Source of the DNA: a virus
DNA length: 25,911 nucleotides
Strand: one strand, 5' to 3'
IMG/VR virus record: IMGVR_UViG_3300044981_000054
Location: 1 to 25,911 of that record
Below the pieces are notes generated by a model. It searched no databases and was not told the DNA's origin. It was given only the letters and a program-made list of their open reading frames with translations. A program made the translations under genes and the position numbers. Numbering within the stretch: the stretch's first letter is position 1; the number at the start of each line of letters is the position of its first letter. Positions 3,551 through 17,876 of the stretch are shown here, piece by piece.

Positions 3551-3579
3551 TTGATTGTGCCCGCAACCTTGGCCACATT
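3551..3579 (+). promoter_or_regulatory. Copy 1 of a three-copy 29-bp motif (candidate phage promoter/operator)
   Basis: TTGATT, then a 17-base block GTGCCCGCAACCTTGGC, then CACATT. The central block is shared with copies at 11637 and 17529. It fills the short gap between the large terminase and the next gene, ending a few bases before that gene's start. Read as a sigma70 promoter it has a fair -35 and a poor -10. The conservation of the spacer argues instead for a dedicated recognition sequence, such as that of a phage RNA polymerase or regulator. Confidence 0.5.
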
Positions 3580-3585
3580 CTGGCC
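3571..3585 (+). other. Small inverted repeat abutting a start codon
   Basis: GGCCA (3571-3575), loop CATTC, TGGCC (3581-3585): a perfect 5-bp stem that ends at the base before ATG 3586. No Shine-Dalgarno is visible in this gap. The stem may affect initiation of the next gene or be part of the regulatory motif it overlaps. Confidence 0.4.
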
Positions 3586-3846
3586 ATGAGCTTTCTCGCC
3601 CATCTGCAGCAGAGCGTCCACAAGGTTGATCCCGTCGATACCGCTGTCAGCAAGGCGGTGGGGTTGAACTTCGCGCCCAAGACGCCTCCGCCGACTCCGG
3701 GCGTGCCCAATCCCAACGACGCTGCCAATGCCGCGCAGAACCTCACCGACCAGATGCGCATGCGGCGGGGGCTGATGGCCAACATCTACGCGGGTGCCGC
3801 GGCCAATCAGCAGCCTGTCACGGGCAAGACCGCCCTGGGCACATGA
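3586..3846 (+). CDS. Conserved small phage protein preceding the portal, 86 aa
   Basis: ATG 3586 gives MSFLAHLQQSVHKVDPVDTA, then a proline-rich linker (PKTPPPTPGVPNP), a helix with MRMRRGLMANIY, and a C-terminus TGKTALGT. Many podophages encode, next to the terminase or portal, a short protein with an MGFL-like N-terminus, a Pro/Ala-rich middle and a final arginine-rich helix before a G-KT-LG end. This protein fits that pattern. The function of those proteins is not established. The start has no ribosome binding site, unlike most genes here, and follows directly after the three-copy motif. The stop overlaps the next ATG (ATGA). Confidence 0.7.
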   Translation: MSFLAHLQQSVHKVDPVDTAVSKAVGLNFAPKTPPPTPGVPNPNDAANAAQNLTDQMRMRRGLMANIYAGAAANQQPVTGKTALGT

Positions 3847-4115
3847 CTCCCGTGGCGCTCTCCAAGGCCGAGAGCCTGGCGAAGTTCGCGCAGGCCTCGG
3901 GCTCGCCCCTCAACACCTTCGCGCTCACGCTCACACGCGGGGAAGCGTACGAGCTGCTGGACTACATGGCGGAAGGAGGGCTGGGAAAGTGTCAGTTCCA
4001 CGACGATCTGGTACGTGACATCCGCCAGGCCAAGTCGGATGGTGATCCCTGGGTGATCCTCAGGAACTTCCAGCTTCAGGGGCTGGATATCGTGTGCGTG
4101 GACAGCCTGCACTGA
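3843..4115 (+). CDS. Hypothetical protein, 90 aa
   Basis: ATG 3843 overlaps the previous stop, and the TGA at 4113-4115 overlaps the portal start (TGATG). The 90-residue product is predicted to mix helices and strands: ESLAKFAQASGSPLNTFALTL, then GEAYELLDYMAEGG, a segment with several acidic residues, and a C-terminal strand IVCVDSLH. It has two cysteines, no membrane segment and no motif that I recognise. Its position between a small conserved protein and the portal, with tight coupling on both sides, suggests it is made together with head components. No function can be given. Confidence 0.7.
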   Translation: MTPVALSKAESLAKFAQASGSPLNTFALTLTRGEAYELLDYMAEGGLGKCQFHDDLVRDIRQAKSDGDPWVILRNFQLQGLDIVCVDSLH

Positions 4116-5773
4116 TGTCCGATGACGCCAACAGCCTGATCCGCGAGTACGAGTACCTATGGAGTAAGCAGGGCAACTTCCGCATGCTCTGGAACACGGC
4201 CGCGCAGTACGTTATGCCGGCGTGGGACAACTTCATCGGTGAGTTCGCGGAAGGTGTTAACCGCAACACCCGTATCTTCGATTCGACGGGCGTCATCGCC
4301 AACGAACGGTTCGCGGCTGCCATGGAGGCGATGCTCACGCCGCGCAGCCAGATCTGGCACAAGCTCAAGAGCGCTGACGAGGAACTGAACGATATCCCAG
4401 CCGTGCAGCGCTACCTGGATCAGGTCAACAAGATCCTGTTCGCCGCGCGCTATCACCCGATGGCGAACTTCGCCTCCCAGACGGACGAGTGCTACATGTC
4501 ACTCGGGGCGTACGGGAATAACCTGCTTTTCATCGATGAGGTGGTGGGAACCTGTCTGCGCTACCGCTCCGTGCCGCTATCCGAGCTCGTGTGGGCGCTC
4601 AACCATCAGGGGATGGTCGATACCGTCTATCGCAAGTTCAAATACACGGCCAAGCAGGCCATCGATCATTGGGGTAAAACGAACGTCCCGCAGGTGATCC
4701 AGAACCAGTTCGCCAAGAATCCGTACGAAGAGTCCGAGTGGCTCCACGTGATCCGGCCCAACGGCGAGCACGTGCCCTTTTCCTACGGCGATAAGGGGAA
4801 GAAGTTCGAATGCTGGTATATCCACCTGGGGACCAAGTCGATCCAGGAGCGCAGCGCCTATCGGACTTTCCCGTGCGCTGTCGGCCGCTATCGCGTAGCG
4901 CCGCGCGAGAACTATGGCCGGGGACCTGCGACGACCTGTCTGCCTGACATCCGTACGGCCAACGAGATGGTCAAGACGGGCCTTCGGGCCGGCCAGAAGG
5001 CGGTCGATCCGCCCATCCTGCTGGCTGAAGAGTCAGTCCTCCAGAACTTCAACCAGCGTCCCGGTGCCAACAACTACGGGATGATGACCAGCGACGGCAA
5101 GCCCCTCGCCATGGCCTTCGAGGGCAAGAACAACTGGGAGATCGGCAAGGAGCAACTGGAGGGTACCCGCGCCACAGTACGTGACACGTTCCTCAACACG
5201 CTGTTCCAGATCCTCGTCCAGAATCCCAACATGACGGCGACCGAGGCTTTGCTCCGCGCCCAGGAGAAAGGCGAGCTGATCGCTCCCGCGATGGGCCGAC
5301 AGCAGAGTGAGTTCCTGGGTCCGGATATTCACCGCGAGATCGACATTCTCTCAAATGCCAACCAGTTGCCGCCACCGCCACGGGAATTCCTGCGGTCGCG
5401 CAAGGGTATTCAGATCGAGTACACCAGTCCGATGGCCATGGCACTGCGTGCCCAGGAAGGCACGGCGATCATGAACACGGTGAGCGATCTCGCCCAGATG
5501 GCCAACCTCGACAAGTCCGTCCTGCAGCTCTTCGACTTCCACGAGGCCGGCCGGGAGATGGCGATTATCCGGGGCTGCCCGGCGAAGCTCATCCGCAGCG
5601 AGGATGAGGTGCAGGCGCTCATGGAGCATGCGGCGCAACTGCAGCAGCAGCAGGAGGCCGCCCAACAGGCGCCGCAGGTGGCGATGGGTGTGAAGAACCT
5701 CGCCCAGGCCGCTCAGGCGATCGGCGGTGGGGCTGCGGCTCCCGGTAGTCCCCAGGTGGCGGCAGCCGCATGA
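4115..5773 (+). CDS. Portal (head-to-tail connector) protein, T7 gp8-like
   Basis: I place the start at ATG 4115, which overlaps the preceding stop; an alternative start at 4094 would sit inside the upstream gene. The 552 residues match the size of T7-type connectors (T7 gp8 is about 535). Characteristic segments are the N-terminal helix LIREYEYLWSKQGNFRMLWN followed by QYVMP, then MLTPRSQIWHKL, the mid-protein YRKFKYTAKQAI, the core RENYGRGPA and a C-terminal LRAQEKGELIAPAMGR region. The last ~45 residues are Gln/Ala-rich, probably a flexible tail. The product forms the ring through which DNA is packaged and released, bridging the capsid vertex and tail tubular protein A. Its place just after the terminase agrees. 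Confidence 0.92.
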   Translation: MSDDANSLIREYEYLWSKQGNFRMLWNTAAQYVMPAWDNFIGEFAEGVNRNTRIFDSTGVIANERFAAAMEAMLTPRSQIWHKLKSADEELNDIPAVQRYLDQVNKILFAARYHPMANFASQTDECYMSLGAYGNNLLFIDEVVGTCLRYRSVPLSELVWALNHQGMVDTVYRKFKYTAKQAIDHWGKTNVPQVIQNQFAKNPYEESEWLHVIRPNGEHVPFSYGDKGKKFECWYIHLGTKSIQERSAYRTFPCAVGRYRVAPRENYGRGPATTCLPDIRTANEMVKTGLRAGQKAVDPPILLAEESVLQNFNQRPGANNYGMMTSDGKPLAMAFEGKNNWEIGKEQLEGTRATVRDTFLNTLFQILVQNPNMTATEALLRAQEKGELIAPAMGRQQSEFLGPDIHREIDILSNANQLPPPPREFLRSRKGIQIEYTSPMAMALRAQEGTAIMNTVSDLAQMANLDKSVLQLFDFHEAGREMAIIRGCPAKLIRSEDEVQALMEHAAQLQQQQEAAQQAPQVAMGVKNLAQAAQAIGGGAAAPGSPQVAAAA

Positions 5774-6162
5774 CGGACGCCTACGACAATGGCAATGGCT
5801 CGGTGCAACTGACGTGGCCTTCGTTCACGACGGTGGTTCCCGATAGCTATAACGTGTACGTCAACGGCACGCTGAACCAGAACGTCGCGACGCGGGTCGC
5901 CACGGTCAGCGGGCTCACGGCTACGAGCTATTCGGCGGGGGCCATTCCACCCACGCCCAACAACTCCACACGGCCGCAGAGCATGCCGCCTACCGGCGTG
6001 GTGACGGATTCGCTGACCTACCATTTCCGTATTACGGCGGTGAAGTCCGGTATCGAGATCGCGAGCCTCAAGGATGTCTCGGTGACCGCGCAGCCGGTCT
6101 CGATCCTGCTTACCACGCCGATGAAGCGCGTCTTTCCCTTTCCCAACACGGGGCTCGACTGA
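5770..6162 (+). CDS. FN3-like beta-sandwich protein, 130 aa
   Basis: ATG 5770 overlaps the portal stop (ATGA). The N-terminal ~110 residues read like a fibronectin type III domain: GSVQLTWPSF (first strand with Trp), PDSYNVYVNGTL, VATVSGLTATSY, a Pro/Asn-rich loop, then LTYHFRITAVKSGIEIA and SVTA. The C-terminus is short and basic. FN3 and other Ig-like domains are common accessory modules on phage virions, where they may bind weakly to carbohydrates. No signal peptide or membrane segment is visible. It opens a run of five beta-rich or small proteins between the portal and scaffold. Confidence 0.7.
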   Translation: MTDAYDNGNGSVQLTWPSFTTVVPDSYNVYVNGTLNQNVATRVATVSGLTATSYSAGAIPPTPNNSTRPQSMPPTGVVTDSLTYHFRITAVKSGIEIASLKDVSVTAQPVSILLTTPMKRVFPFPNTGLD

Positions 6163-6449
6163 TGGCCGCAATCGATGCCATGCACCCTGAGCACCGCGAA
6201 CGGCTTCGGACTGCCGCGGTGGTGCACGAGACGGTCAAGCATCAGGTGCACGAGTCTATCTCGACCTCGCTCCAGAAAGAGACGGAGCGCCTGTTGGTCG
6301 CCATGCAGGAAGACGTGCAGACGGACAGGGAGATCGTCGTGGCGATCCGCGAACTGGTCCAGGCCCTGCGCGCGCCGATCCAGCGGACCTGCACGTTGCA
6401 CCTGTCCACCGGTCCTGTGGCCATCACGGTTCACGAGCAACGCCTTTGA
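6162..6449 (+). CDS. Coiled-coil hypothetical protein, 95 aa
   Basis: ATG 6162 overlaps the previous stop (TGATG). Residues 10-70 are a long amphipathic helix rich in Glu, Arg, Val and Leu (HRERLRTAAVVHETVKHQVH, then a Ser/Thr/Glu stretch, REIVVAIRELVQALRAPI), consistent with a coiled coil. The last 20 residues switch to beta-type sequence (TCTLHLSTGPVAITV). A stalk-like helix followed by a short beta tip suggests an oligomeric connector, but this is inference only. There is no transmembrane segment, so it is not an obvious spanin. Confidence 0.65.
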   Translation: MAAIDAMHPEHRERLRTAAVVHETVKHQVHESISTSLQKETERLLVAMQEDVQTDREIVVAIRELVQALRAPIQRTCTLHLSTGPVAITVHEQRL

Positions 6450-6462
6450 GAGGGAATTCATC

Positions 6463-6669
6463 ATGTCACTCGCATCAACCTATGCTGCGACCATCGCGAC
6501 CGCGCAGACCAGCCTTCCGACGCCCTTTGTCGGCCCCGGTGGCCTTATCACGGCCACGGTCGCGGAGAACGGCAACTGCGCCATCACCTTGAACAACACT
6601 CAAACCTTCACCGTCCCACCCGCGATGGTGCTGGCGTTCGCCACCTGGGTCACAACCACTTTCACCTGA
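6463..6669 (+). CDS. Small hypothetical protein, 68 aa
   Basis: ATG 6463 with GAGAGGG eight bases upstream is a strong start, and the ORF ends TGA 6667-6669. The frame is open upstream only as a shadow of the preceding gene. The product (MSLASTYAATIATAQTSLPT, then a Gly/Pro turn, ITATVAENGNCAITLN, then TFTVPPAMVLAFATWV) is short, nearly uncharged and beta-prone with a C-terminal hydrophobic helix. I recognise no family. Placement in the accessory cassette suggests a virion or assembly role. Confidence 0.6.
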   Translation: MSLASTYAATIATAQTSLPTPFVGPGGLITATVAENGNCAITLNNTQTFTVPPAMVLAFATWVTTTFT

Positions 6670-6678
6670 GGATTCGCG

Positions 6679-7203
6679 ATGGTCACCTACGACTTCAACT
6701 TCCCCGTGTTCACTCCAGCCTCGCTCGTTGCGGTGGCTGGTGGTGTCACGACCGGCTCGGTGCTGACCGGTATCATCTTCCCCGGTACCAACAAGTCCTC
6801 GATTATCACCGAGATCGACATCGAGGGCTCGGGGTCTTCCAGCGCGCCGGCTACCTTCGCGCTGTTCCGCACTATCACGAGTGCTGCCGCAGGTGCGTTG
6901 ACCACGGTCATCACGGGTCAGCCCACCATCTCGGTCGCGACCAACCCGGCTTTCACCGGCTCGGCGGGACAGGGCTCGTTCGCCACCACGCAGCCAACGC
7001 TGGCCGGCGCGGCTTTGAAGAACTGCGGACTGAATGCCAACGGTCAGCGGTATTTCTGGCGTGCCAACCCGAACCTCGACAACGCCATTGATCTTCCGGG
7101 TACAGCGACGGCGCTGTTGAACGGGATCGCGATCGTGCAGGTCGTGGCGACTGGCACTTCCGCGATCGCCGCGCAGGTGCGTATCCAGCTGAAAGAGATC
7201 TAA
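6679..7203 (+). CDS. Beta-rich hypothetical virion protein, 174 aa
   Basis: ATG 6679 follows GAGGA (6668-6672) with a 6-base spacer. The 174 residues are dominated by Thr, Ala, Gly, Ser and Val with few charges. They form repeated beta-type stretches such as TGIIFPGTNKSSIITEIDIE and APATFALFRTIT, then RYFWRANPNLDNAIDLPG and a C-terminal IAAQVRIQLKEI. Low charge and alternating strands are typical of phage decoration, fibre or baseplate-like proteins. I do not recognise a named family. The neighbouring genes 5770-9713 have a similar composition, so they may act as one surface module. Confidence 0.65.
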   Translation: MVTYDFNFPVFTPASLVAVAGGVTTGSVLTGIIFPGTNKSSIITEIDIEGSGSSSAPATFALFRTITSAAAGALTTVITGQPTISVATNPAFTGSAGQGSFATTQPTLAGAALKNCGLNANGQRYFWRANPNLDNAIDLPGTATALLNGIAIVQVVATGTSAIAAQVRIQLKEI

Positions 7204-7209
7204 GCCGGT

Positions 7210-7605
7210 GTGGCTATCCAGGCCATCATCTATTCGAAGGCGACAGGCCGGGTCCGGCGCGTGCTGGACCCGCAGGCGAATGTCCCCAATGTCATAGCCT
7301 TTCTGGCTCAGGCGGGCGCTCAAACTGGCGAAGGCGTCATCGTCTATACCAAACAGGGTGGCGGTGCCGATACGCTCAACGCGTGGCAGGCCGCGGTCAA
7401 CACGGTCACGGGATTGTCGCCCTCGACAGGTGACTGGTACTGCGGGGTTGATGGCAGCAACAACATCCTATGGTGGGGCATCGCTGATCCCGCGCTCGAT
7501 AGCGTTGCGGGTCTCACGCTGATCAACGCGCCATATGGCGCTGACAACCGCTGGACCTATCTGGCCGGTGTGTTCACCGCACCGCTGCCCGGCGTGAAGC
7601 CGTGA
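7210..7605 (+). CDS. Hypothetical protein, 131 aa
   Basis: GTG 7210 is the start that keeps the gene clear of the upstream stop; only a weak AGAG-type ribosome site is seen upstream. Its stop overlaps the next start (GTGA, 7602-7605). The N-terminus (AIQAIIYSKATGRVRRVLDP) is a beta hairpin-like pattern. A central segment is TLNAWQAAVNTVTG, followed by a Trp/Tyr-rich part (DWYCGVD, ILWWGIADP, RWTYLAGVF). Seven Trp/Tyr residues in the last 60 suggest a compact binding or beta domain. No family is recognised. The gene directly precedes the glycine-rich repeat protein and may form or modify the same structure. Confidence 0.65.
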   Translation: MAIQAIIYSKATGRVRRVLDPQANVPNVIAFLAQAGAQTGEGVIVYTKQGGGADTLNAWQAAVNTVTGLSPSTGDWYCGVDGSNNILWWGIADPALDSVAGLTLINAPYGADNRWTYLAGVFTAPLPGVKP

Positions 7606-9713
7606 CGATTCTGTACATCGTCTCGGGTACGACCTTCCTAGCTCCGGGAGGCTGGCCCGGTTCCGGCCAATTCGAGTACATCGGTGGTGGCGGCGCCGGG
7701 CAGGCCGGCAATAACACGCCCGCGTCAGGTACCGGTGGCGGTGGCGCTCAATACGGCATCACCACATCCTTGACGGTCGCCAATGGTGCGGCGCTACAGG
7801 TAGGGCAGGGCGGCACGACGGCGGGCGCGAATGGCACCGATACATGGGTCGGCAGCACGTCGATCGCGCTCGCCAAAGGAGGTCAGGGCGCGCAAACCTC
7901 GGGCACGGCCGGTGTGGGTGGTGGTATCTCGCCGCAGAACGGCGGTGTCGCCACCACACTCCATAACGGCGGCAGCGGAGGCACTTACAACAGTAATAGC
8001 GATGGCGCTTCTGGCGGCGGAGGATCTGGCGGTCCCAATGGCGCGGGTGCGAACGGCGGCAGCGAGGCAACATCGACCGGCACGGCTGGTGGTACGGGAG
8101 GCGGTGGTGGAGGTGGTGGTAGCGCGGGCACCAACCAGACGGCGACGCCCAGCACTTCGGGCACCAACGGCGGTCTCGGTGCCAACGGCTCAGGCACTGT
8201 CGCCGGCACGGCGGGCGCCGGGGCTACCACGTCGGGCTCACCTAATGGCGGTGCCGGCAGCGCCTCGAGCAACTCGTCCGGCGGCGGCGGTGGCGGCGGG
8301 TTCGGAACGACCGGCGCGGGTGGTAACGGAGGCGCGGGCACTGAGTGGGACGCGACCCACGGGTCTGGCGGCGGCGGTGCGGGTAACTGCTCGGTAGCGT
8401 CCGGGACAACGCCCGTCCCCGGGAATGGCGGACTTTATGGCGGTGGTGGTGGTGGTGGCGGCGATGCTTCCTTCACCGCCTTCGGCAAGGGCGCTAACGG
8501 CATCATCGTCGTTACCTACACGGCTGCGACAAGCGCCCAGCCCTATAGCGATGAATGGGACTGGGGCACCGACGAACTCGCGTATGTCGAGGATGATCAG
8601 ACCCTGACGTTGATCGTCGCGGATTCCGCGCCTGTCGGACCTAACCAACCATCCCTGCCAGTCCAGGAAGCGGAAGTCAGCGCCGATTGGTGGCAGGACT
8701 ACGAAGATCCCCTCGTAGAGGACAGCCAGTGGTCCGGGCCAATCCTCCCCAACGCTCCTCCCCAACCGGTGGAGGATATCTGGGATGAAGGCGAGATCGA
8801 GGACGACTGGGATGCCACCAGCACTCCCGTCATGCCCGCGCCTCCTTCGGGGCTACCCCCCGATGACGCATGGGAATGGACCGAGGATGTCGGCGACGAG
8901 GATCTCACCGACGACGGTTCCGACGTCCAGAACAACAACGTGGTTCCGGTGGTTCCCGTGCTCCCGGAAGACCCGTGGCTGCACGAGGACGACCACACTG
9001 ACGAGCCGTTTGGCGATGAGCCACCATTGGGGGCGAATCAGCCGCCATTGCCCGTGGATGACGCGTGGGATTGGTCAGAGCCTGACGACACGAACGATGA
9101 GCCTCCCGATGACGACGGCTCGAATGTCCAGAACGCCAATATCGTCGCTGTACCTCCCGGTCCTGTGGAGGACGGCTGGAACTGGAACGAGCCGGAGGAT
9201 AACGCCGACGATCCACCTGACGATGACGGCAGCAACGTCCAGAACACGAGTGTTGTGCTACTGCCCAGCAACGGCGCCGAAGACCCGTGGAACTGGGATG
9301 AGGAGTCGGCCGAGGACAACTGGTGGGATGGTCTGGATGACGGTTATAACCAGCAGAACAACAACGTCCTACCGCCGGCCATCGGACCCCCGCCGACGTT
9401 GCCTGTCGGTACACTGTTACCCGGGGATCTTGGGGATGAGCTTGGTACTGGCATGGGACCGTACAAGCGTCCCGGTCAGGTGTTCGGCGAGCCCGATCCC
9501 GTTTCCCCTTGGCTGACTTCGCGCGTAGACTCAACTCACCCGGGTAGTGCCGGTCTTGGGGCGGTCGGAGAAAGTAGCCTCATAGCGATGGCTCCGGCCG
9601 CTCCCGAGGCTGTGGCGATCTTCAAAGCCCTCGGGCCGGATCTCACCGAAGCCGATATCGCGCAGATCCTGATCGCGCTAGAATTGCTCCTGCATGGCGG
9701 AACTCCCCGTTGA
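7602..9713 (+). CDS. Glycine-rich protein with tandem acidic Trp repeats (candidate head or tail appendage)
   Basis: A 703-residue protein starting at GTG 7602 (overlapping GTGA). Residues 1-310 form a glycine-rich domain: a Trp/Pro-containing entry (FLAPGGWPGSGQFEYIGGGG), then Gly/Ser/Ala/Thr/Asn repeats and an exit strand GANGIIVVTYTA. This organisation matches the glycine-rich domain found in phage tail and fibre proteins. Residues 315-600 are very acidic, with recurrent DD-W-W-E units separated by Pro-rich linkers; from residue 421 they become regular repeats of 30-37 residues. Residues ~600-703 are a short non-repetitive end (TEADIAQILIALELLL) that may be the attachment or oligomerisation part. 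The frame runs 20 bases into the next gene. Function is unknown; the domain mix suggests an extended surface appendage. Confidence 0.8.
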   Translation: MTILYIVSGTTFLAPGGWPGSGQFEYIGGGGAGQAGNNTPASGTGGGGAQYGITTSLTVANGAALQVGQGGTTAGANGTDTWVGSTSIALAKGGQGAQTSGTAGVGGGISPQNGGVATTLHNGGSGGTYNSNSDGASGGGGSGGPNGAGANGGSEATSTGTAGGTGGGGGGGGSAGTNQTATPSTSGTNGGLGANGSGTVAGTAGAGATTSGSPNGGAGSASSNSSGGGGGGGFGTTGAGGNGGAGTEWDATHGSGGGGAGNCSVASGTTPVPGNGGLYGGGGGGGGDASFTAFGKGANGIIVVTYTAATSAQPYSDEWDWGTDELAYVEDDQTLTLIVADSAPVGPNQPSLPVQEAEVSADWWQDYEDPLVEDSQWSGPILPNAPPQPVEDIWDEGEIEDDWDATSTPVMPAPPSGLPPDDAWEWTEDVGDEDLTDDGSDVQNNNVVPVVPVLPEDPWLHEDDHTDEPFGDEPPLGANQPPLPVDDAWDWSEPDDTNDEPPDDDGSNVQNANIVAVPPGPVEDGWNWNEPEDNADDPPDDDGSNVQNTSVVLLPSNGAEDPWNWDEESAEDNWWDGLDDGYNQQNNNVLPPAIGPPPTLPVGTLLPGDLGDELGTGMGPYKRPGQVFGEPDPVSPWLTSRVDSTHPGSAGLGAVGESSLIAMAPAAPEAVAIFKALGPDLTEADIAQILIALELLLHGGTPR
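8544..9390 (+). repeat. In-frame acidic/tryptophan tandem repeat region
   Basis: Regular units begin at codons for residues 421, 456, 486, 523 and 560 (bases 8862, 8967, 9057, 9168, 9279). Each starts E/D-D-x-W, most continue W-x-E, then an acidic stretch, GS-NVQN and V-x-x-P. The last two spacings are both exactly 37 codons (111 bases), which suggests recent duplication there. More degenerate Trp/acidic units precede them from 8544. The DNA copies have diverged at synonymous and other sites, so selection appears to hold the protein pattern. Confidence 0.75.
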
Positions 9714-10005
9714 AGAACAGAACGCAGTCGAGCGCGAGCGGCGCAAGACCCAACTGCGCGACCGCGCGCGGATCTTCCGTGAAGTGTTCGGGAGTTGGGA
9801 CAAGCCCACCACCCACGGCAGGATCATCCTCGATGGCCTGCTGTCCAAGTTCGGCCACGCCCTACCGCCCAATGTGTTGGACAACAATGGCCGTACCGAC
9901 GAGTACCAGACCTGGCGCCGGTTAGGTCACTTCGACGTGCTCGAATACATCAAAACCCAGATTGAATGGAGAGAAGATGTCAACCCCAGCGGCTCAGGCT
10001 CTTAG
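9694..10005 (+). CDS. Bbp19-like small phage protein, 103 aa
   Basis: ATG 9694 lies 20 bases inside the previous gene; no strong Shine-Dalgarno is visible. The 103-residue product begins with charged helices (EEQNAVERERRKTQLRDRAR). It continues FREVFGSWDKPTTHGRIILD, GLLSKFGHALPP, then RTDEYQTWRRLGHFDVLEYI. The order FG-----G--VL-DL---F, then a short loop, then E--R-LG---V---I resembles the small podophage proteins related to Bordetella phage Bbp19, which are encoded beside portal and scaffold genes. Their function is not settled; a head-assembly role is usually assumed. The family assignment is from memory of the pattern. Confidence 0.6.
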   Translation: MAELPVEEQNAVERERRKTQLRDRARIFREVFGSWDKPTTHGRIILDGLLSKFGHALPPNVLDNNGRTDEYQTWRRLGHFDVLEYIKTQIEWREDVNPSGSGS

Positions 10006-10930: not shown

Positions 10931-11091
10931 CGGAACGCGACACCCTCATCGCCTACCTACGCATGAAGGTAGAGCAGGCTGACTGGCATGGGGTTCGTGA
11001 CGCGGCAGTAGACATTGAGATATTGGAGGCTCGTGAGCGTGGACAACAAGACGTGTACCGGCTGCAGAGAGACGAAACCGGCAACGCGTGA
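10927..11091 (+). CDS. Conserved very small phage protein, 54 aa
   Basis: ATG 10927 overlaps the scaffold stop (ATGA) and the ORF ends TGA 11089-11091. The sequence (MTERDTLIAYLRMKVEQADW, then HGVRDAAVDIEILEARE) is a single amphipathic helical unit. The motif I--LR-KV---DWHGV-DAA-D---LEAR is one I have seen in short proteins beside virion genes of several phages. They have no known function. The 3' third overlaps the start of the HNH endonuclease gene in another frame by about 50 bases, so the tail after residue 37 may have been altered when that gene inserted. Confidence 0.65.
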   Translation: MTERDTLIAYLRMKVEQADWHGVRDAAVDIEILEARERGQQDVYRLQRDETGNA

Positions 11092-11602
11092 ATTCTGGAC
11101 GCCGAATCAAGGCAGTCGAGGAGGGTGGAGGTCCCAGTGCAAGCTCTGCACGAACGCGAAGGGACGCGTGAGGAGTCAGCGCTGGGGTAAGAAGTGGCAT
11201 GCCAATCGGCGCAATGGATGGCTCAAAAGAAAATACGGCATCACCCTCAGTGACTACGAACGGCTGCTGAAAGCGCAAGGAGGAGTGTGTCTAATCTGTC
11301 ACTCGCCAGAGTCTCGAAAAGACGGACAACTTCATCTAAGTGTTGATCATGACCATCAGACAGGTCAGGTGCGGGGGTTGCTCTGTGTTCGCTGCAATAC
11401 CCTAGTCGGTCTTCTTGAGACCTTGGGGCCGCATAGTAAAATTGCATGGAATGCGATGCTCTACATCAAAGGCTGTAGAAGAATCGAATTCATGGAGGCG
11501 GTCCCAAGCCGGCTGGAAGCCTCAATGGTAGGCTTCCCAGAAGATCGCGGTCAGTCCCAGCATGATCAGCCCAGCGATGGCGTAGATCAGCAGCGTCCCT
11601 AA
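11039..11602 (+). CDS. HNH / recombination endonuclease VII-type homing endonuclease
   Basis: GTG 11039 lies nine bases after GGAGG (11025-11029); GTG 11033 and TTG 11015 are in-frame alternatives. The product has an N-terminal zinc-ribbon-like part (C6, C9, C34, C37) and a basic middle rich in Arg, Lys and Trp. The endonuclease VII core is C84-x2-C87, then the catalytic D103-H-D-H segment, then C116-x2-C119-N. These are the zinc ligands and the ββα-metal active site of the family. Such free-standing genes cut relatives lacking them and spread by repair. Hand counting of 11221-11400 gives about 51% GC, clearly below flanking genes, suggesting transfer. The last ~40 residues do not look like the family and may be read-through. 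Confidence 0.88.
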   Translation: MDNKTCTGCRETKPATREFWTPNQGSRGGWRSQCKLCTNAKGRVRSQRWGKKWHANRRNGWLKRKYGITLSDYERLLKAQGGVCLICHSPESRKDGQLHLSVDHDHQTGQVRGLLCVRCNTLVGLLETLGPHSKIAWNAMLYIKGCRRIEFMEAVPSRLEASMVGFPEDRGQSQHDQPSDGVDQQRP

Positions 11603-11623
11603 AATCTCGTCTTTGATGTTCAT
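11522..11623 (-). CDS. Candidate antisense membrane microprotein, 33 aa
   Basis: On the minus strand, ATG at 11623 reads MNIKDEILGTLLIYAIAGLI, continues MLGLTAIFWEAYH and stops at TGA (11524-11522). It has a polar start, one 20-residue hydrophobic helix, and an aromatic C-terminus, a textbook single-span membrane microprotein. Codons are mostly GC-ending and conventional. Against it: no Shine-Dalgarno is seen upstream, all other genes are on the + strand, and it overlaps the atypical 3' end of the endonuclease gene. It could be a lysis-type or relic protein, or a chance reading. Confidence 0.25.
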   Translation of the reverse strand: MNIKDEILGTLLIYAIAGLIMLGLTAIFWEAYH

Positions 11624-11636
11624 TGGGCACGCAGTC

Positions 11637-11665
11637 TTGCATGTGCCCGCAAGCTTGGCTAGCGT
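11637..11665 (+). promoter_or_regulatory. Copy 2 of the three-copy 29-bp motif (candidate promoter)
   Basis: TTGCAT, 17 bases beginning GTGCCCGCAAGCTTGGC, then TAGCGT. It agrees with copy 3 at nearly every position in both halves and with copy 1 mainly in the central block. It stands about 160 bases upstream of the capsid start, in non-coding DNA. If transcription starts just after it, the capsid mRNA would carry all the hairpins downstream. Confidence 0.55.
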
Positions 11666-11709
11666 CCCCTTCAAGCGGACACGGCCACGGCCCCTTGCAG
11701 GGCGCGAGC

Positions 11710-11768
11710 CCCCGCTGACGGGGTAGAAAGCGACCCAGCCATCCCGGCTCACCGGGTAGAAGCGCCCC
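11710..11768 (+). repeat. Two tandem hairpin units in the capsid leader
   Basis: Unit 1: CCCCG (11710-11714), loop CTGA, CGGGG (11719-11723), then TAGAAAGCG. Unit 2: CCCGG (11743-11747), loop CTCA, CCGGG (11752-11756), then TAGAAGCG. Start to start is 33 bases. The fourth stem pair is C-G in unit 1 and G-C in unit 2, so pairing is kept while the bases are swapped. This pattern fits a duplicated RNA hairpin or a duplicated protein-binding site. Confidence 0.6.
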
Positions 11769-11784
11769 CTTCGGGACACGGCCT

Positions 11785-11811
11785 TCGAAAACTCATCTCC
11801 CCAGTTTTCGA
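11785..11811 (+). promoter_or_regulatory. Stem-loop adjoining the capsid ribosome binding site
   Basis: TCGAAAACT (11785-11793) pairs perfectly with AGTTTTCGA (11803-11811) around the 9-base loop CATCTCCCC. The right arm runs into GAGAGG (11810-11815), the Shine-Dalgarno of the capsid gene, which is seven bases before GTG 11823. There is no T-tract after it, so it is not a classical terminator. It may stabilise the capsid mRNA 5' end or control ribosome access. Confidence 0.6.
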
Positions 11812-11822
11812 GAGGCTGCGCC

Positions 11823-12740
11823 GTGTCAACCAACATCGTGACGTTCTATGTTCAGCAGTATGCCAAGACGCTGAACGAGCTGGTCCAACAGAAAACCTCC
11901 CGGCTGCGCAAGTTCTGCACCGAGGACAAGTACGTCGGCCAGGCAGCCTCCCCTGTTGAGCAGGTGGGCGCGGTCTCGATGCAGCCGGTCACCCAACGCT
12001 ATGGCCCGATGCAGCGTGTGGACGCGCCGACCGATCGCCGGTGGGTCTATCCCTCCGACTACGATCTGCCGCAGCTGTTCGACAACTTCGACAAGCTGCG
12101 TCTGCTCATCGATCCCAAGGGCAAGTTCGTCAGCAACGCCAAGAACGCCGCGAACCGCCAGTACGACGATCTGATCATCGCCGCTCTCGGTGGCACCGCG
12201 CAGACTGGCGTCACCGGCCAGAACTCCATCGTCCTTCCTGCGGGTGAAGTCGTCTCGGTCCAGCAGGGCGCGACCGCACCCACGGGACTCACGGTCGCGA
12301 AGCTCCGCCAGGCCAAGCTCATCCTGATGCAGAACGAATCGTACTCCGATGAGGAAGAGGACCCAGGCGATCCGAACTCCGGACTCGTCTGCGTCGCGGG
12401 CGCTCGCCAGCTGGATAACCTGATGGCGGAAGCCCAGGTCGTCAGCCGCGACTTCAACGACCAGCCGGTGCTCGAGGAGGGTCGCGTCAAGCGGTTCCTC
12501 GGCATCGAGTTCGTGCGCTCCGAGCGTCTGCAATCCGGCACGGACGATCAGGCCGGCACGAGTACCAAGGTGTTTATGTGGCAGCGCGAAGGGATGCACC
12601 TCGGTATCTGGAACGACATCACCACCAACATCAGCCAGCGGCACGACCTGCAGTCCGAGCCGTGGCAAGCCTACGTATTCATGACCGCCGGGGCGACCCG
12701 GTTGGAAGAGAAGCGCGTTACACAGATCTGGGCCCGATAA
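11823..12740 (+). CDS. Major capsid protein
   Basis: GTG 11823 has GAGAGG seven bases upstream. The 305-residue product has the layout of podophage HK97-fold capsid proteins: an N-terminal helical arm (FYVQQYAKTLNELVQQKTSR), RRWVYPSDYDLPQLFDNFDK, a spine-like helix region (AANRQYDDLIIAALGG), TVAKLRQAKLILMQNE, a central GLVCVAGARQLDNLM strand-helix, and a final strand RLEEKRVTQIWAR. Its position after the scaffold and before tail genes agrees. The acidic SDEEEDPGDPN segment is probably an exposed loop. It is the main shell subunit and is expected to be the most expressed gene here, consistent with its own leader. The exact capsid family needs a profile search. Confidence 0.9.
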   Translation: MSTNIVTFYVQQYAKTLNELVQQKTSRLRKFCTEDKYVGQAASPVEQVGAVSMQPVTQRYGPMQRVDAPTDRRWVYPSDYDLPQLFDNFDKLRLLIDPKGKFVSNAKNAANRQYDDLIIAALGGTAQTGVTGQNSIVLPAGEVVSVQQGATAPTGLTVAKLRQAKLILMQNESYSDEEEDPGDPNSGLVCVAGARQLDNLMAEAQVVSRDFNDQPVLEEGRVKRFLGIEFVRSERLQSGTDDQAGTSTKVFMWQREGMHLGIWNDITTNISQRHDLQSEPWQAYVFMTAGATRLEEKRVTQIWAR

Positions 12741-12757
12741 ACCAGGGTAAATAGCCA

Positions 12758-12771
12758 GGGGGCCGGTCCCC
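12758..12771 (+). other. Short GC hairpin between capsid and next gene
   Basis: GGGGG (12758-12762), loop CCGG, TCCCC (12767-12771): a 5-pair stem including one G-T. It lies in the 56-base gap after the capsid gene. No T-run follows, so a terminator function is not supported; a role in mRNA processing or stability is possible. Confidence 0.3.
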
Positions 12772-12796
12772 AGCTTGGAGCCCTTGAGGAACTGAT

Positions 12797-13480
12797 ATGG
12801 CACTTGTTACTCGTCTGTCGACTGTTGTCTCCAACTACGAGGCGCAGCCGCGCATTCTCACCTCGGGTTACCTTTCCGGAGGCAATGACACCGTGGGAGT
12901 GGCTTCCGTCGCCACGACCGCAACCGACTCCATCGGTTCGATCTACCGCTTCGGCTTCATCCCTTCAGGCGTGCGCATCGAAGACATCCAGTTACAGAAT
13001 GATGCCACCACGGCGGGCGTGTGGCAGGTCGGTGTCTATCTGAACGATAACCAGTCGCTCAACACCGCGCTGTCACTGACCACATGGAATGCGACCACCG
13101 CCTACGTCCCGGGCAACGTGGTGCAGTATCTGGGTGTCGTGTACTACTGCACGACCGGCAACACCAACTCCACGCCGCCTTCGGGTAACTGGACGACCGG
13201 GTTGGCGGTGAATACGCCGGCTTCATCGATCCCGAACGTCAACGGGATGCAGATCTTCAACTCCGGTACCTCGACGGCGACGGCGAACGCGGCCTGGAAA
13301 TCGGTCTACTCACCCTCAATCGGTGCGGTCGGCGTGGCAGCCGCCAACGTCAATCTGCGCGTGTGGGAACTGCTCGGCTTCGCGCAGGACCCCTTCTATG
13401 AATTCCATCTGGCCCTGACGGCCACGACTGCTCCGACCGCGGTGGGCACGATCTCGTTGCAGTGGAGCTGGGTGCGGTAA
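12797..13480 (+). CDS. Beta-rich head protein with an inserted W/YYC carbohydrate-binding-like module
   Basis: ATG 12797 follows GAGGA (12786-12790) at 6 bases. The 227 residues are low in charge and beta-rich. The outer parts (SIYRFGFIPSGVRIEDIQLQ, WQVGVYLNDNQ and a C-terminal FYEFHLALTATTAPTA) resemble proteins encoded just after capsid genes and may be a decoration or fibre subunit. Residues 97-132 form a separate module with W, then Y-x2-G, YYC, NTN, PP and a final W, the spacing of CBM5/12-like chitin-binding folds. The same module is present in the tail nozzle protein encoded at 14704. The module looks inserted between two strands of the host fold. The gene's stop overlaps the next start (TAATG). 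Confidence 0.7.
   Translation: MALVTRLSTVVSNYEAQPRILTSGYLSGGNDTVGVASVATTATDSIGSIYRFGFIPSGVRIEDIQLQNDATTAGVWQVGVYLNDNQSLNTALSLTTWNATTAYVPGNVVQYLGVVYYCTTGNTNSTPPSGNWTTGLAVNTPASSIPNVNGMQIFNSGTSTATANAAWKSVYSPSIGAVGVAAANVNLRVWELLGFAQDPFYEFHLALTATTAPTAVGTISLQWSWVR
13085..13192 (+). repeat. Module copy A (W / YYC / NTN / PP / W)
   Basis: Codes for residues 97-132 of the protein starting at 12797. In order it has W-N, Y-x2-G, V, G-x2-YYC, NTN, PP and W. The matching copy is at 15016-15126. Similarity is clearer in protein than in DNA, which points to an old exchange or a common domain source. Confidence 0.65.
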
Positions 13481-13710
13481 TGGCCGCGATCTCCTACATC
13501 ATCAGTGTCGGCGGCACGCTCGAAACCGTGACCACCGGCACGGCCGCGCCGACTTCTGGAAGCGTGGAGATCCGCATGGACCAGACCGCCACATCGGTCA
13601 CGGACGGAGGGTCGACCACCGGAACGCGCTCGCCGAAGAAGGGCGAGATCCAACAGTTGATCCGGATTCTGGAGGAATACCTCATCCGTGACACCAACGT
13701 GGTGGAGTAA
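13480..13710 (+). CDS. Conserved small phage protein, 76 aa
   Basis: ATG 13480 overlaps the previous stop (TAATG), and its own TAA overlaps the next ATG at 13710. Residues 1-45 are beta-type and Thr/Gly-rich, with VEIRMDQTATSVTDGG; residues 54-76 form a helix (KKGEIQQLIRILEEYLIRD). The pattern VEIR-DQTAT-VTD-G, a short loop, then K-E----L--I--Y--RD is one I associate with short proteins encoded near phage capsid genes. Those proteins lack a known function; a small virion or assembly subunit is plausible. The in-frame ATG at 13462 is inside the previous gene and is rejected as the start. Confidence 0.7.
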   Translation: MAAISYIISVGGTLETVTTGTAAPTSGSVEIRMDQTATSVTDGGSTTGTRSPKKGEIQQLIRILEEYLIRDTNVVE

Positions 13711-14084
13711 TGGCGGGTTACGCTTCAGCTGATGCGGTTCAACCGGTCCTCTTGCAAGGGACTTCCCTGATCAACTGCGCCAATGGTGTAGTGGGCTCAA
13801 CTGGGGCGGGGCAGGCGTTTGATTCGGTGCTACACGGGGTCTATATCCAGTTCGCCGCCACGGCCGCTACATTGACGATCGGCGGCTTTCTGGACAACAC
13901 CGGCGCCCCCCAACCGATGCTGATCAGCGGCCAGACGACGGTGGACTACTTCTGGACGCCGCCCAACCCGCTACTCAATCGGGGGGGAGCACTCACCTTC
14001 ACTCCATCGGTAGGTGCAAAAATCTGGGTACTGGTCAGGGCGTACATCGGACCCGAGCGGCCGGAAACGCGCGTCAATACGTAG
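13710..14084 (+). CDS. Beta-rich hypothetical virion protein, 124 aa
   Basis: ATG 13710 overlaps the preceding stop. The product has few charges and alternating beta segments (VQPVLLQGTSLINCANGVVG, HGVYIQFAATAATLTIGGFL, TVDYFWTPPNPLL, AKIWVLVRAYI). It ends in a short charged tail (GPERPETRVNT). One or two beta sandwiches are likely. Position between the capsid and tail tubular genes suggests a head-completion or decoration protein. I recognise no named family. Confidence 0.65.
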   Translation: MAGYASADAVQPVLLQGTSLINCANGVVGSTGAGQAFDSVLHGVYIQFAATAATLTIGGFLDNTGAPQPMLISGQTTVDYFWTPPNPLLNRGGALTFTPSVGAKIWVLVRAYIGPERPETRVNT

Positions 14085-14092
14085 GTTTCGTT

Positions 14093-14704
14093 ATGGCATC
14101 CGAAGTCGACATCGCGAACCTCGCCCTGTCGATCTTGGGGAAGCCCTCGATCGCAAGCTTTCTCGATAACTCCAATGCCGCGCGCGTCATCAACATCGAG
14201 TATGACCTGCTGCGCCGTGCATTGCTGCGCGGTCGCTCGACGTGGCGCTTCTCTGTTGGTCGCGCTTCGTTGCCCGTTTTGAGCACTGCGCCGGTTTCAG
14301 GTCCCTACACCCAACAGTACGCCATGCCGCCGGATTGCCTGCGGGTGTTGCTGGCTGGAGATACCTGGCCCGGGTTGGATCTTTCCGACTACCGTCTTGG
14401 ACCTACGGATGCCGGCTACCTCGTGGAGGGTCGCAACATTCTGTGCGATTACGGTGCGCCGCTGTCTTTGAAGTACGTGCGCGATATCACTGACACCACG
14501 CTCATGGACGCGCAATTCGTGATCGCCCTGGCCTCGGACATCGCCTACACGTGCTGTGAGCGGCTGACGGGCTCGGATGCCAAGCAGGCCGCGGCGCTCA
14601 CCCGCAAGAAAGATGCGATGGGCGAGGCGCGCGCCTCGAATGCCTTCGAGAATACTCCGGAGGCGAATGCGGACGCCGAGTGGATCGCCGCCCGGATGCA
14701 GTAA
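14093..14704 (+). CDS. Tail tubular protein A (T7 gp11-like adaptor)
   Basis: ATG 14093 begins a 203-residue protein with the hallmarks of podophage tail tubular protein A. The N-terminus is DIANLALSILGKPSIASFLD. NAARVINIEYDLLRRALLRG follows, then STWRFSVGRASLPVL, the segment YAMPPDCLRVLLAG, and a C-terminal helical pair (ALASDIAYTCCERLTGSDAK, then ALTRKKDAMGEARASNA). The size is close to T7 gp11 (196 residues). The protein forms the ring between the portal and the nozzle. The stop overlaps the next start (TAATG, 14702-14706), so adaptor and nozzle are coupled. Confidence 0.9.
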   Translation: MASEVDIANLALSILGKPSIASFLDNSNAARVINIEYDLLRRALLRGRSTWRFSVGRASLPVLSTAPVSGPYTQQYAMPPDCLRVLLAGDTWPGLDLSDYRLGPTDAGYLVEGRNILCDYGAPLSLKYVRDITDTTLMDAQFVIALASDIAYTCCERLTGSDAKQAAALTRKKDAMGEARASNAFENTPEANADAEWIAARMQ

Positions 14705-17451
14705 TGGCCAGAGCTTCCCCCGCGATCGCTGCCCAGAATGCCGGTGAGTTCGCCCCCCAGATGGAGGGTCGGACGGATATTGAGAAGTACGCGATTGCCT
14801 CCCACATCGCGCAGAACTTCCTCTCGCTGAAACAAGGTCCCGCCACTTTCCGGCAGGGCACCGCCTACGTGCAGCCGGTCAAGAACTCCGCCAACCGCAG
14901 CTGGCTGCGTCGTTTCGAGTTCTCCCAGACCCAGGCGTTCGTGCTCGAGTTCGGCGACAAGTACGTGCGCTTCTACACCAACCACGGACCGCTCCTGGCG
15001 ACCGGAGTGGCGGCATGGAACAACTCGGCGCTCTACTTCATCGGTAGTCTGGTATTACAAGGCGGCATCATCTATTACTGCGTGCTGGCCAACACCAACC
15101 AGCTGCCGCCGAACGCCACTTACTGGTATCCCCTGACGCCGTACCAGGGATCTCCCACCACGGCGATCTACGAGATTCCCTCGCCCTACGCGGTCGCTGA
15201 TCTCACGGACTCTCTCGGGGAGTTCACGCTCCAGATCGTGCAGTCCGGGGACGTGCTCTATATCGCGGGAGGGTCGGCCGGTACCGGTCCCTCAGGTGTG
15301 GGCTATCCGCCCTACACCCTGACCCGTTTCGCCAACGCGCCGCCCAACTGGAGTTTCTCGCAGTACAGTCCCACGGACGGCCCGTTCGCAAGCCCCGTGC
15401 CGATCGTGCCCAACCAGAACATCGCACTCAGTGTCTCGGCGGTGCAGGGCTCGGCTATCACCATCACAGCCTGGGGCGGCAATCTCTTCGCGCCCACGGA
15501 CGTAGGACGATTGGTTCGTATCGGTTCGCAGTACTTCAATGTCACGCCCTGGACGTTCAATGTCGCCTGGACCGCCGGTCAACAGTGCGTCAACAACGGC
15601 AACAACTACACGGCGTTGAATTCCGCCAATTCCGCAGGAGCTGCCCCTGTGCAGACCTCTGGAGCAGCTTTTGACGGCAAGGGTGGGGTGCAGTGGCTCT
15701 ACACCGATTCCGGTTACGGGATCGCGCAGATCACAGGCTACACGGATGCCCAGCACGTCACCGCCAAGGTGCTCACGCAGTTCCCGGCCAACGTGGTGGG
15801 CGTCTCGCAGGCGATCACCGGGATCACCAATGCCAATCCCGCGGTCGTGACGGTCGCGAGTGCCGCGGCGTTGTCCGCCGGCACGGCGGCGTTCATCACC
15901 GGCGTACTGGGCATGACCCAGGTGGACGGGGATGCCTTCACGATCGGGTCTTCCACCGCGACGACCTGTACGCTGGCTGGTATCGATTCCACCCTGTACG
16001 GGACCTACACCAGTGGCGGCACCATCATCGCCAATGCCTCGCTCGAATGGCAGTTGGGCGCGTGGTCCAACACCACCGAATGGCCCCGGGCCTGCGCGTT
16101 CTTCAAGGACCGGCTCTTCTGGGCAGGCAAACTCAACGTCTGGGGATCGGTCCCGGGCCTCTACAATAGCCAGGCCCAGGACTTCTTCGGCCAGCAGACG
16201 ACCGACTCCGCGCTCAACGAGCTGGTGTCCGGCTCCGATGCCTCCAACATCACGTGGCTCTCGCCGGCCATCATCCTCCTGATCGGTACCCAAGGAGGCG
16301 AATACGGACTGGACGCGGCGAATTACTCGACCAGTCCCCTGGGGCCTTCGAACGTCGAGATCCTGCGTCAATCCAACTGGCGCTGCCGGCCGATCGCGCC
16401 CGAGCTCGTGGGCACAACCGTGGTGTACGTCCAGCGGGCGGGTCGCAAGATCTTCGCCATGGACTACAACTTCTACCTGAACCGCTATGACTCCACCGAT
16501 CAGTCGAAGTTCGCCTATCACATCACCATCGGCGGACTGACCTCGATCGCCTTCATGCAGGAACCGTGGTCGATCCTGTGGGGCACACGAGCGGATGGAA
16601 CGCTCCTGTCCTACACGTTCAACCGTGAGGACAATGTAACCGCCTGGAACCGGCAAAACCTAGGGGGCGTTTCCGCCTTTGGAGGCTACGGCGCGGTGGA
16701 GAGTCTTGCGGTGATTCCCGCTCCCGATGGACTACGGGACGAGCTGTGGATGATCGTCAACCGCATCGTGAACGGGCAAACAGTGCGGACCGTGGAATAC
16801 ATGGTGAAGCACTACGAGGGTCCCCAGGCCGGTTACCCGGGCGATACCCAGTCTTCCTGTTGGTACCTCGATTGCGCCGCCAGCGTCACGCAATCCGGCA
16901 CCACGCAGATCTCCATCCCGTGGCTGGTCGGTCAGACCATCGGCATCCTGGCGGATGGCGGTGTGCAGCCTCAACAGGTCGTGCCGGCCAACGGCATCGT
17001 GACACTGGCGGGGACCTTCACCACGGTTACCGCAGGACTTCCCTATCAGGGCAACCTCGTGCCCATGCGCCCGGAGGGTGGGGCGGATGTCGGCACCGCG
17101 CAGGGCAAACTCAAGCAGGGTGCGAATCTCGTGATCCGGCTGGTCGACTCCGCTGGCGGCATCATCGGCCAACTGTCCAACCAGAACGCAACCACCCAGT
17201 TGTATCAGGATCCCCTGGGTTTGCCGACCCAAACGCTGCAGAACGCGGAGAATATCGCCTACAATTACACGACGACTCCGCTGAATTCCCCGCCGCCGCT
17301 CCAGTCTGGAGATTTCCCAATCAGTTTCCCGATGCAGGCCAATTCGGACCAGGATGCGCGGGACTTCTACATTCTCGTCCAGCAGAACTCACCCCTGCCC
17401 ATGACGGTTGTCGGCTTGTATCCCTCCTACAAGGTCGAAGAGCCTCAATGA
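14704..17451 (+). CDS. Tail tubular protein B (T7 gp12-like nozzle) with inserted modules
   Basis: I choose ATG 14704 (overlapping TAATG) rather than 14680, which lies inside the previous gene. The product is 915 residues, longer than T7 gp12 (794). The N-terminal nozzle signature is clear: NFLSLKQGPATFRQGTAYV, SWLRRFEFSQTQAFVLEFGD, then YVRFYTNHG, and later YEIPSPYAVADLTDSL and QSGDVLYIAGG. Between RFYTNHG and YEIPSPY sits an extra module (residues ~105-141). A second W-containing module spans residues 289-331, and residues 371-442 resemble the FCCH-type beta domain that phage proteins share (ITGITNANPAVVTVAS through TSGGTI). The C-terminal half is the beta-propeller-like platform. It forms the tail tip that carries the spikes. 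Confidence 0.9.
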   Translation: MARASPAIAAQNAGEFAPQMEGRTDIEKYAIASHIAQNFLSLKQGPATFRQGTAYVQPVKNSANRSWLRRFEFSQTQAFVLEFGDKYVRFYTNHGPLLATGVAAWNNSALYFIGSLVLQGGIIYYCVLANTNQLPPNATYWYPLTPYQGSPTTAIYEIPSPYAVADLTDSLGEFTLQIVQSGDVLYIAGGSAGTGPSGVGYPPYTLTRFANAPPNWSFSQYSPTDGPFASPVPIVPNQNIALSVSAVQGSAITITAWGGNLFAPTDVGRLVRIGSQYFNVTPWTFNVAWTAGQQCVNNGNNYTALNSANSAGAAPVQTSGAAFDGKGGVQWLYTDSGYGIAQITGYTDAQHVTAKVLTQFPANVVGVSQAITGITNANPAVVTVASAAALSAGTAAFITGVLGMTQVDGDAFTIGSSTATTCTLAGIDSTLYGTYTSGGTIIANASLEWQLGAWSNTTEWPRACAFFKDRLFWAGKLNVWGSVPGLYNSQAQDFFGQQTTDSALNELVSGSDASNITWLSPAIILLIGTQGGEYGLDAANYSTSPLGPSNVEILRQSNWRCRPIAPELVGTTVVYVQRAGRKIFAMDYNFYLNRYDSTDQSKFAYHITIGGLTSIAFMQEPWSILWGTRADGTLLSYTFNREDNVTAWNRQNLGGVSAFGGYGAVESLAVIPAPDGLRDELWMIVNRIVNGQTVRTVEYMVKHYEGPQAGYPGDTQSSCWYLDCAASVTQSGTTQISIPWLVGQTIGILADGGVQPQQVVPANGIVTLAGTFTTVTAGLPYQGNLVPMRPEGGADVGTAQGKLKQGANLVIRLVDSAGGIIGQLSNQNATTQLYQDPLGLPTQTLQNAENIAYNYTTTPLNSPPPLQSGDFPISFPMQANSDQDARDFYILVQQNSPLPMTVVGLYPSYKVEEPQ
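15016..15126 (+). repeat. Module copy B (W / YYC / NTN / PP / W)
   Basis: Codes for residues 105-141 of tail tubular protein B. It has the same order as copy A: W-N, Y-x2-G, V, G-x2-YYC, NTN, PP, W. It interrupts the usual nozzle N-terminal domain between two segments normally close together in this family, so it is a clean domain insertion. Confidence 0.65.
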
Positions 17452-17876
17452 GGGTCGAGCCGTACCGGCCCTATCACGTGCAACTGTTGATCGCGCAGGG
17501 CGTCCAGCCTTCGCAAGCTCGGCAGGTCTCGCATGTGCCCGCAACCTACGCTAGCGTCGAAAAACCACCGGGAATCGCGTTGACCGCGTTCGATGGGGAC
17601 GAGGTGCTGTTATGCGGCGGGATCATCCCGACGCGTCCGGGGATCGGGATTCTGTGGGCGCTGCTATCAGCGAACTCGGGTCGCCGCATGCTCTGGCTGC
17701 ACCGCGCCACGCAGCGGGTCCTGACACTGGAGCAGTGGCAACGCATCGAGGCGGATGTACCGGATGACTTCCCGCAAGGATGCCGGTGGCTGGAGTTGTT
17801 GGGATTCAAGTATGAGGGTCCGATGCCGAAATACGGGTTGAACGGCGAGACGCATCTGCGGTTCGGACGGACCTGA
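17448..17876 (+). CDS. Internal virion protein A-like (GNAT/DUF2833-like)
   Basis: ATG 17448 overlaps the nozzle stop (ATGA); the longer open frame upstream is a shadow of that gene. The 142-residue product starts with YRPYHVQLLIAQGVQPSQAR and has a central strand (GDEVLLCGGIIPTRPGIGIL) and WALLSANSGRRMLWLHRATQ. It ends ADVPDDFPQGCRWLELLGFK, then YEGPMPKYGLNGETHLRF. The pattern of an internal Gly-rich turn and a final ---WLELLGF-YEG-M--YG--GE---RF resembles acetyltransferase-fold proteins and T7 gp13-related phage proteins. T7 gp13 is a minor internal virion or assembly protein, which suits this position. Whether it has acetyltransferase activity is unknown. It carries copy 3 of the 29-bp motif within its coding sequence. 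Confidence 0.72.
   Translation: MRVEPYRPYHVQLLIAQGVQPSQARQVSHVPATYASVEKPPGIALTAFDGDEVLLCGGIIPTRPGIGILWALLSANSGRRMLWLHRATQRVLTLEQWQRIEADVPDDFPQGCRWLELLGFKYEGPMPKYGLNGETHLRFGRT
17529..17557 (+). promoter_or_regulatory. Copy 3 of the three-copy 29-bp motif, inside a gene
   Basis: TCGCAT, 17 bases GTGCCCGCAACCTACGC, then TAGCGT. It is embedded in the internal virion protein A-like gene, about 320 bases before the next gene. Here it is translated (HVPATYAS), whereas the other two copies are untranslated. Keeping the same bases in different contexts argues for a DNA or RNA function. It would serve the ejection-protein genes. Confidence 0.5.

Follow-up and report, generated by a model that had tools for sequence, protein, structure and literature searches.

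The window considered here, i.e., the whole stretch of DNA that was analyzed, is a 25.9-kb linear virus record that represents the late half of a T7-shaped podovirus. Its late genes encode the terminase large subunit (TerL), portal, endonuclease VII, capsid, tail tubes A and B and internal virion proteins. Among annotated phages, the best match to the capsid protein is from an uncultivated Manatee Spring phage (51%), and identity to the capsid proteins of HTVC010P-type pelagiphages is 34-37%. No cultured phages were found with DNA similar to the window or to the capsid leader described below. The gene after the capsid gene (12797-13480) has a relative in locus L147 with a weak match to the carbohydrate-binding module CBM_5_12 (E=3e-5, below the cut-off). 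The original prediction for this DNA was a 29-bp motif at positions 3551, 11637 and 17529, and all three copies are present there on the plus strand. The genes and the copies are the following:

2084-3550, plus strand: TerL gene, stop codon at 3548-3550; copy 1 begins immediately after it
3551-3580, plus strand: copy 1 (class A), TTGATT-GTGCCCGCAACCTTGGC-CACATT-C; the ATG at 3586 is the predicted +1 (leaderless)
3586-3846, plus strand: small conserved gene, the first of the portal module, predicted to be served by copy 1 without a leader
11637-11666, plus strand: copy 2 (class B), TTGCAT-GTGCCCGCAAGCTTGGC-TAGCGT-C; predicted promoter of the capsid leader, kept upstream of the major capsid protein (MCP) gene in about 30 relatives
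11823-12740, plus strand: MCP gene, GTG start (phrog_3437, E=1e-65)
17448-17876, plus strand: internal virion protein (IVP) gene (phrog_4177), which contains copy 3
17529-17558, plus strand: copy 3 (class E), TCGCAT-GTGCCCGCAACCTACGC-TAGCGT-C; inside the IVP gene, with synonymous codons constrained at the DNA level

Copy 1 fits exactly between the TerL stop codon and the ATG at 3586. A structured leader separates copy 2 from the capsid start, which is 186 nt downstream. The shared pattern TGTGCCCGCAANCTNNGC has exactly three exact matches in the window, and allowing up to three mismatches adds one site (three mismatches, minus strand); these four matches compare with 1.27 expected by shuffling, and four were reached in three of 100 shuffles. 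A bipartite form, TTGNWTGTGCC-N13-ANNNTC, has three matches at two or fewer mismatches versus 0.67 expected. These window-only statistics are post hoc and modest, and the strong evidence comes from the relatives. A generic sigma70 scan of positions 3400-18000 did not flag the three copies, as their weak -10 would lead one to expect.

The relatives consist of 32 capsid relatives from IMG/VR, most with 83-95% capsid identity, together with two phage contigs from one betaproteobacterial MAG bin (5.9 Mb). The window is a fragment, and the completeness of the relatives was judged by length only. Two distinct phages of the group (L131 and L132) are binned in one betaproteobacterial MAG, which is a weak hint as to the host.

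When the relatives are aligned over the region that precedes the capsid gene, the conserved sequence is TTGnWTGTGCCCG-N10-YAnnnTC. The information is bipartite: TTG and TGTGCC are followed by about 10 weakly conserved positions, then by a -10-like element and a C. In the -10-like element, the A at -11 is invariant and the T at -7 nearly so; the spacing is 17 nt, and nearly all of the sequences have the TTG. This layout suits a bacterial RNA polymerase; sigma70-type promoters have A-11 and T-7, and their -35 and -10 elements are separated by 16-18 bp. A matrix trained solely on the sites that precede the capsid gene in the window and about 30 relatives gives the two untrained window copies, 1 and 3, scores of 30.9 and 31.7 bits, and even at a looser cut-off of at least 10 bits only about 0.3 false matches per genome are found in Markov sequence. 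When 34 related loci (419 kb) were scanned, 63 sites were on the coding strand and two on the opposite strand. The original prediction, which viewed the motif as a promoter-like element ahead of late modules on the transcribed strand, implied that more copies would stand ahead of gene blocks; the relatives bear this out both by strand and by the fixed gene boundaries at which the sites recur, and the element is specific to the phages. We conclude from these alignments and scans that the 29-base motif is probably a promoter specific to these phages, copies of which stand at corresponding gene boundaries in about thirty related phages from soil.

The sites fall into five classes. Class A sites stand behind the TerL stop codon, class B sites ahead of the capsid gene and class C sites ahead of the tail-tube A gene; class D sites, seen in two relatives, are ahead of the gene before the capsid gene, and class E sites are inside the IVP gene. 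The portal module is likewise preceded by class A sites in L011, L012, L014, L018, L020, L031, L056, L169 and L170. The -35-like triplet is TCG in class E and TTG or TAG in the other classes. Several genomes that lack class E have class C instead. At 13 of the 15 listed class A, C and D sites, a start codon is reached at +1 to +4 when counted from T-7 (the automatic choice of start codon gave none in this range for G009 and G001); therefore, the mRNAs from these three classes should be leaderless.

A divergent clade, G010, has no sites when scanned with the capsid-copy matrix. At three places it has instead the box TTGnnATTTGCAAA: behind TerL, ahead of the capsid leader and within the IVP gene, in the last case at another codon. 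The TTGnnATTTGCAAA pattern was formed after the first two of these copies had been seen, so that only the IVP copy serves as a test. Because the box changed together at several promoters, a trans-acting factor is suggested. The relative G010 (L157, 5652-5807) has tRNA-Asn and tRNA-Gln genes; when tRNAs were considered as a clue to the host, these two were the only ones in G010.

Copy 3 could be a coding coincidence, i.e., the protein motif SxVPxxYASV with no functional site in the DNA. The copy is indeed in frame within the gene, a recurring peptide is encoded in the relatives and the -35-like triplet is TCG. However, codon choice is constrained over 11 relatives despite differing amino acids. 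All 11 have an NNT codon directly behind TCG, be the amino acid H, Y, I or L, even though these genomes use codons with a final T in the minority of cases; TCG and GTG are likewise fixed. The codon-frequency products for the 11 relatives, which ignore kinship, are 10^-9.6 for the NNT codon, 10^-6.1 for TCG and 10^-3.6 for GTG. The stretch is also prone to indels at the protein level. L020 encodes the same SYVP peptide as TCC TAC GTT CCT and has no site there; it has a tail-tube A promoter instead. Conversely, L026 has an altered peptide, yet TAGGGTC is kept through an AGG codon. A coding coincidence is therefore quite unlikely, and the original view that coding does not explain copy 3 holds up: rare codons appear to be retained here for the DNA and not for the protein.

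Copy 2 was correctly placed ahead of the capsid gene in the original prediction, to which the conserved RNA leader between the two was not visible. The parts of this leader in the window are:

11669-11812, plus strand: capsid-gene leader, a structured RNA (covariance model R1, 69.5 bits, E=1e-17)
11675-11715, plus strand: hairpin 1, with P1 (GCGG/CCGC), a 4x1 internal loop of ACAC (11679-11682) opposite C (11711) and an extended apical part, P2
11764-11782, plus strand: hairpin 2, GCC-C-CC-TTCG-GG-ACAC-GGC, with the same 4x1 loop permuted (ACAC at 11776-11779)
11783-11812, plus strand: 3' hairpin, whose 3' arm holds the capsid gene's putative Shine-Dalgarno region

The structure was derived by hand and has 31 pairs, which are 93.5% paired in the 16-sequence seed; covariation in the seed is 0.409 versus 0.132 for shuffled and at most 0.098 for slid alignments. 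In a larger, model-fitted alignment, 96% of the cells are paired, with covariation of 0.540 versus 0.150 (shuffled) and at most 0.085 (slid), and RNAalifold predicts essentially the same helices from it. The pairs of the 3' hairpin are maintained by G-U and by two-sided changes. Retention of G-U pairs on the coding strand of the leader is as expected because the element would act as RNA. The seed for R1 excluded the window, and the window leader was found regardless. The model places the leader directly before the capsid gene in every relative with searched upstream DNA, with the exception of the 40%-identical L032, and the long relatives carry it once. Folded alone, the window leader is not exceptional (z=-1.42). 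Rfam has no match to the leader at the gathering score and none at E<=5 for the leader of L014. Hence, we infer that copy 2 launches a previously undescribed covarying leader of about 145 nt, which is conserved in the relatives. A search of the literature found neither such a promoter nor such a leader.

The apical part of hairpin 1 in the window (11683-11710) is about 18 nt longer than in close relatives such as L056 and L002. Looser counterparts of the hairpins occur in L032 and L103. L032 has two GGACACGGCC-like hairpins with ACAC loops (9186-9240) before its capsid gene, in a different arrangement; its model score is 9.9 bits, for hairpin 2 only. The capsid leader of MW202898 (L103, 19830-19971) scores 7.7 bits and has GGC-C-CTGTC-GTAA-GACAG-ACAA-GCC, which is like hairpin 2, in a similar order of helices. 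Alteromonas phage ZP6 (L107) has upstream of its MCP gene a near-perfect TTGACA-17-TATAAT promoter, followed by two hairpins that share GGTAGCCAnnnGGTC; these twin hairpins are possibly another capsid leader of different sequence.

Both hairpins hold 5'-GG-ANNN-G opposite a single C, with the long strand 5' in the first hairpin and 3' in the second. The main loop types are ACAC, ACAA, ACUA, ACCC, AUCC, AUAA and GCAA. Loop bases 3 and 4 agree between the two hairpins in 31 of 32 sequences versus 12.8 expected, a level reached by none of 100,000 permutations, and base 2 is C or U in each loop independently of the other. On a capsid tree, the loop type changes several times. A shared partner or a direct contact between the loops would explain the agreement. 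Three more specific explanations were considered and rejected: no MCP column tracks the loop type, as might be expected if the capsid protein were the partner; the loops are identical rather than complementary, and so, they would not pair with each other; and a loop that pairs with the capsid start GUGUC would suit ACAC but not the ACAA, ACUA and ACCC lineages.

What, then, would recognize the promoter? The original prediction compared the motif with the late promoters of single-subunit phage RNA polymerases such as that of T7, which would suit a long, specific, multi-copy motif found on a single strand ahead of late modules. This likeness was not supported in the relatives. A search with PF00940, which finds the T7 polymerase in T7 (E=1e-109), found no T7-type polymerase in 11 relatives of 27-43 kb, the MAG or MW202898, and sigma70 regions 2 and 4 were absent from ten long relatives; hence, neither a phage RNA polymerase nor a sigma-like gene, either of which had been considered, was found in the 10-11 long relatives, though such a gene could be missing from the fragmentary window and relatives or be too divergent for PF00940. 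In addition, the motif is not a continuous block of about 20 bp that spans the start site. It is bipartite, with a 13-bp block, a variable linker of about 10 low-information positions and a 7-bp -10-like block with A-11 and T-7, and there is no conserved continuation 3' of the latter up to +1. We consider a T7-like promoter to be very unlikely. The same can be said of a DNA site with some other role, such as packaging, replication or a repressor operator, that is coincidentally at gene boundaries. The box is long and asymmetric and one copy is within a gene, as might be expected for such a site; however, the sites have a single orientation, start codons follow the -10-like element by +1 to +4 at most of the class A, C and D sites, and at the capsid site a long RNA leader starts just after the -10.

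Another explanation is that these are ordinary host sigma70 promoters, the long box being the -35 style of the host itself, with no phage factor involved. The spacing of 17 and the conservation of TTG and A-11/T-7 agree with this, and the related HTVC010P-type pelagiphage Skadi has been described as having sigma70-type promoters and no RNA polymerase of its own (PMC10504331). However, all four matches to the full pattern in the 5.9-Mb MAG are inside its two phage contigs (the bin may not be the host), and the divergent clade changed its box at several sites together. These observations make an unaided host promoter unlikely. The lack of PF00940 and of sigma70 regions, together with the confinement of the box to the phage contigs of the MAG, favors the host polymerase plus a phage factor.

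We therefore prefer, with a probability of about 0.7, a class of late promoters that the host RNA polymerase would read, probably helped by a phage factor; the capsid copy would drive a structured leader. The phages would be T7-shaped podoviruses with HTVC010P-like capsids, apparently without an RNA polymerase of their own. The host polymerase would read the sigma70-type -10 (YAnnnT) and the -35-like TTG at a spacing of 17 nt, and the TGTGCCCG block, which extends from the -35 into the spacer, would most likely be bound by a phage-encoded factor that steers the polymerase to the late genes. Leaderless mRNAs would come from the promoter behind TerL and from the one ahead of tail-tube A. The capsid promoter would produce the leader of about 145 nt, whose last hairpin would cover the ribosome-binding region; with its two matching loops, the leader probably tunes capsid translation or mRNA stability. 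What the sequences show directly is the number of copies, their strand bias and fixed gene positions, the constraint on the DNA within the IVP gene, the covariation of the RNA and the concerted loops. A more detailed version is offered only tentatively: a phage factor of a new type might retarget the host polymerase to the 13-bp box, and the leader might be a new RNA class in which the two permuted loops must match since the same partner binds both or the loops dock, thereby controlling capsid output.

One could speculate as to which protein is the factor:

612-1058, plus strand: conserved 148-aa protein with an internal duplication, a candidate phage transcription factor for the promoter

The structure model of this protein is confident (pLDDT 88) and predicts helix-strand-helix-hairpin-helix repeats. 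It has no Pfam or PHROG match and no informative PDB or viral fold match, and its gene is on the opposite strand in some relatives. A second candidate (1314-1652) has a mediocre helical model. Four small genes, the one at 612-1058 among them, are conserved upstream of TerL, and searches of Pfam and PHROG with conserved small genes from this region gave nothing significant.

Parts of this system resemble known ones. Like the late promoters of T7 and the Autographiviridae, several short promoters stand ahead of late modules in a T7-shaped set of virion genes, but the motif here has a -10-like element in a bipartite layout and the relatives have no detected single-subunit polymerase. T4 middle promoters consist of a MotA box at -30 plus a sigma70 -10. 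The promoters described here likewise have a phage-specific box in the -35 region and a sigma70-type -10; however, the sequence is different, they precede late structural genes and the activator is only a candidate. The T4 gene 32 leader and the MS2 operator are examples of structured phage leaders with protein-bound hairpins. The capsid leader, too, is structured, stands at the 5' end and extends over the ribosome-binding region of a phage gene with high expression, but it differs in its two matching permuted 4x1 loops and in having no counterpart in Rfam. Finally, the HTVC010P-type pelagiphages (Skadi and HTVC010P) have the same structural gene order and capsid family, whereas neither the box nor the leader RNA was seen in the HTVC010P or HTVC028P stretches examined.

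In conclusion, these sequences provide a testable late-gene switch for uncultivated podoviruses that apparently lack a polymerase. One genome is predicted to mix leaderless and long-leader late mRNAs, which would be unusual, and a promoter inside a gene is apparently maintained by codon choice. The structured RNA is new, and its two loops, which change together, give a clear handle on finding the binding partner.
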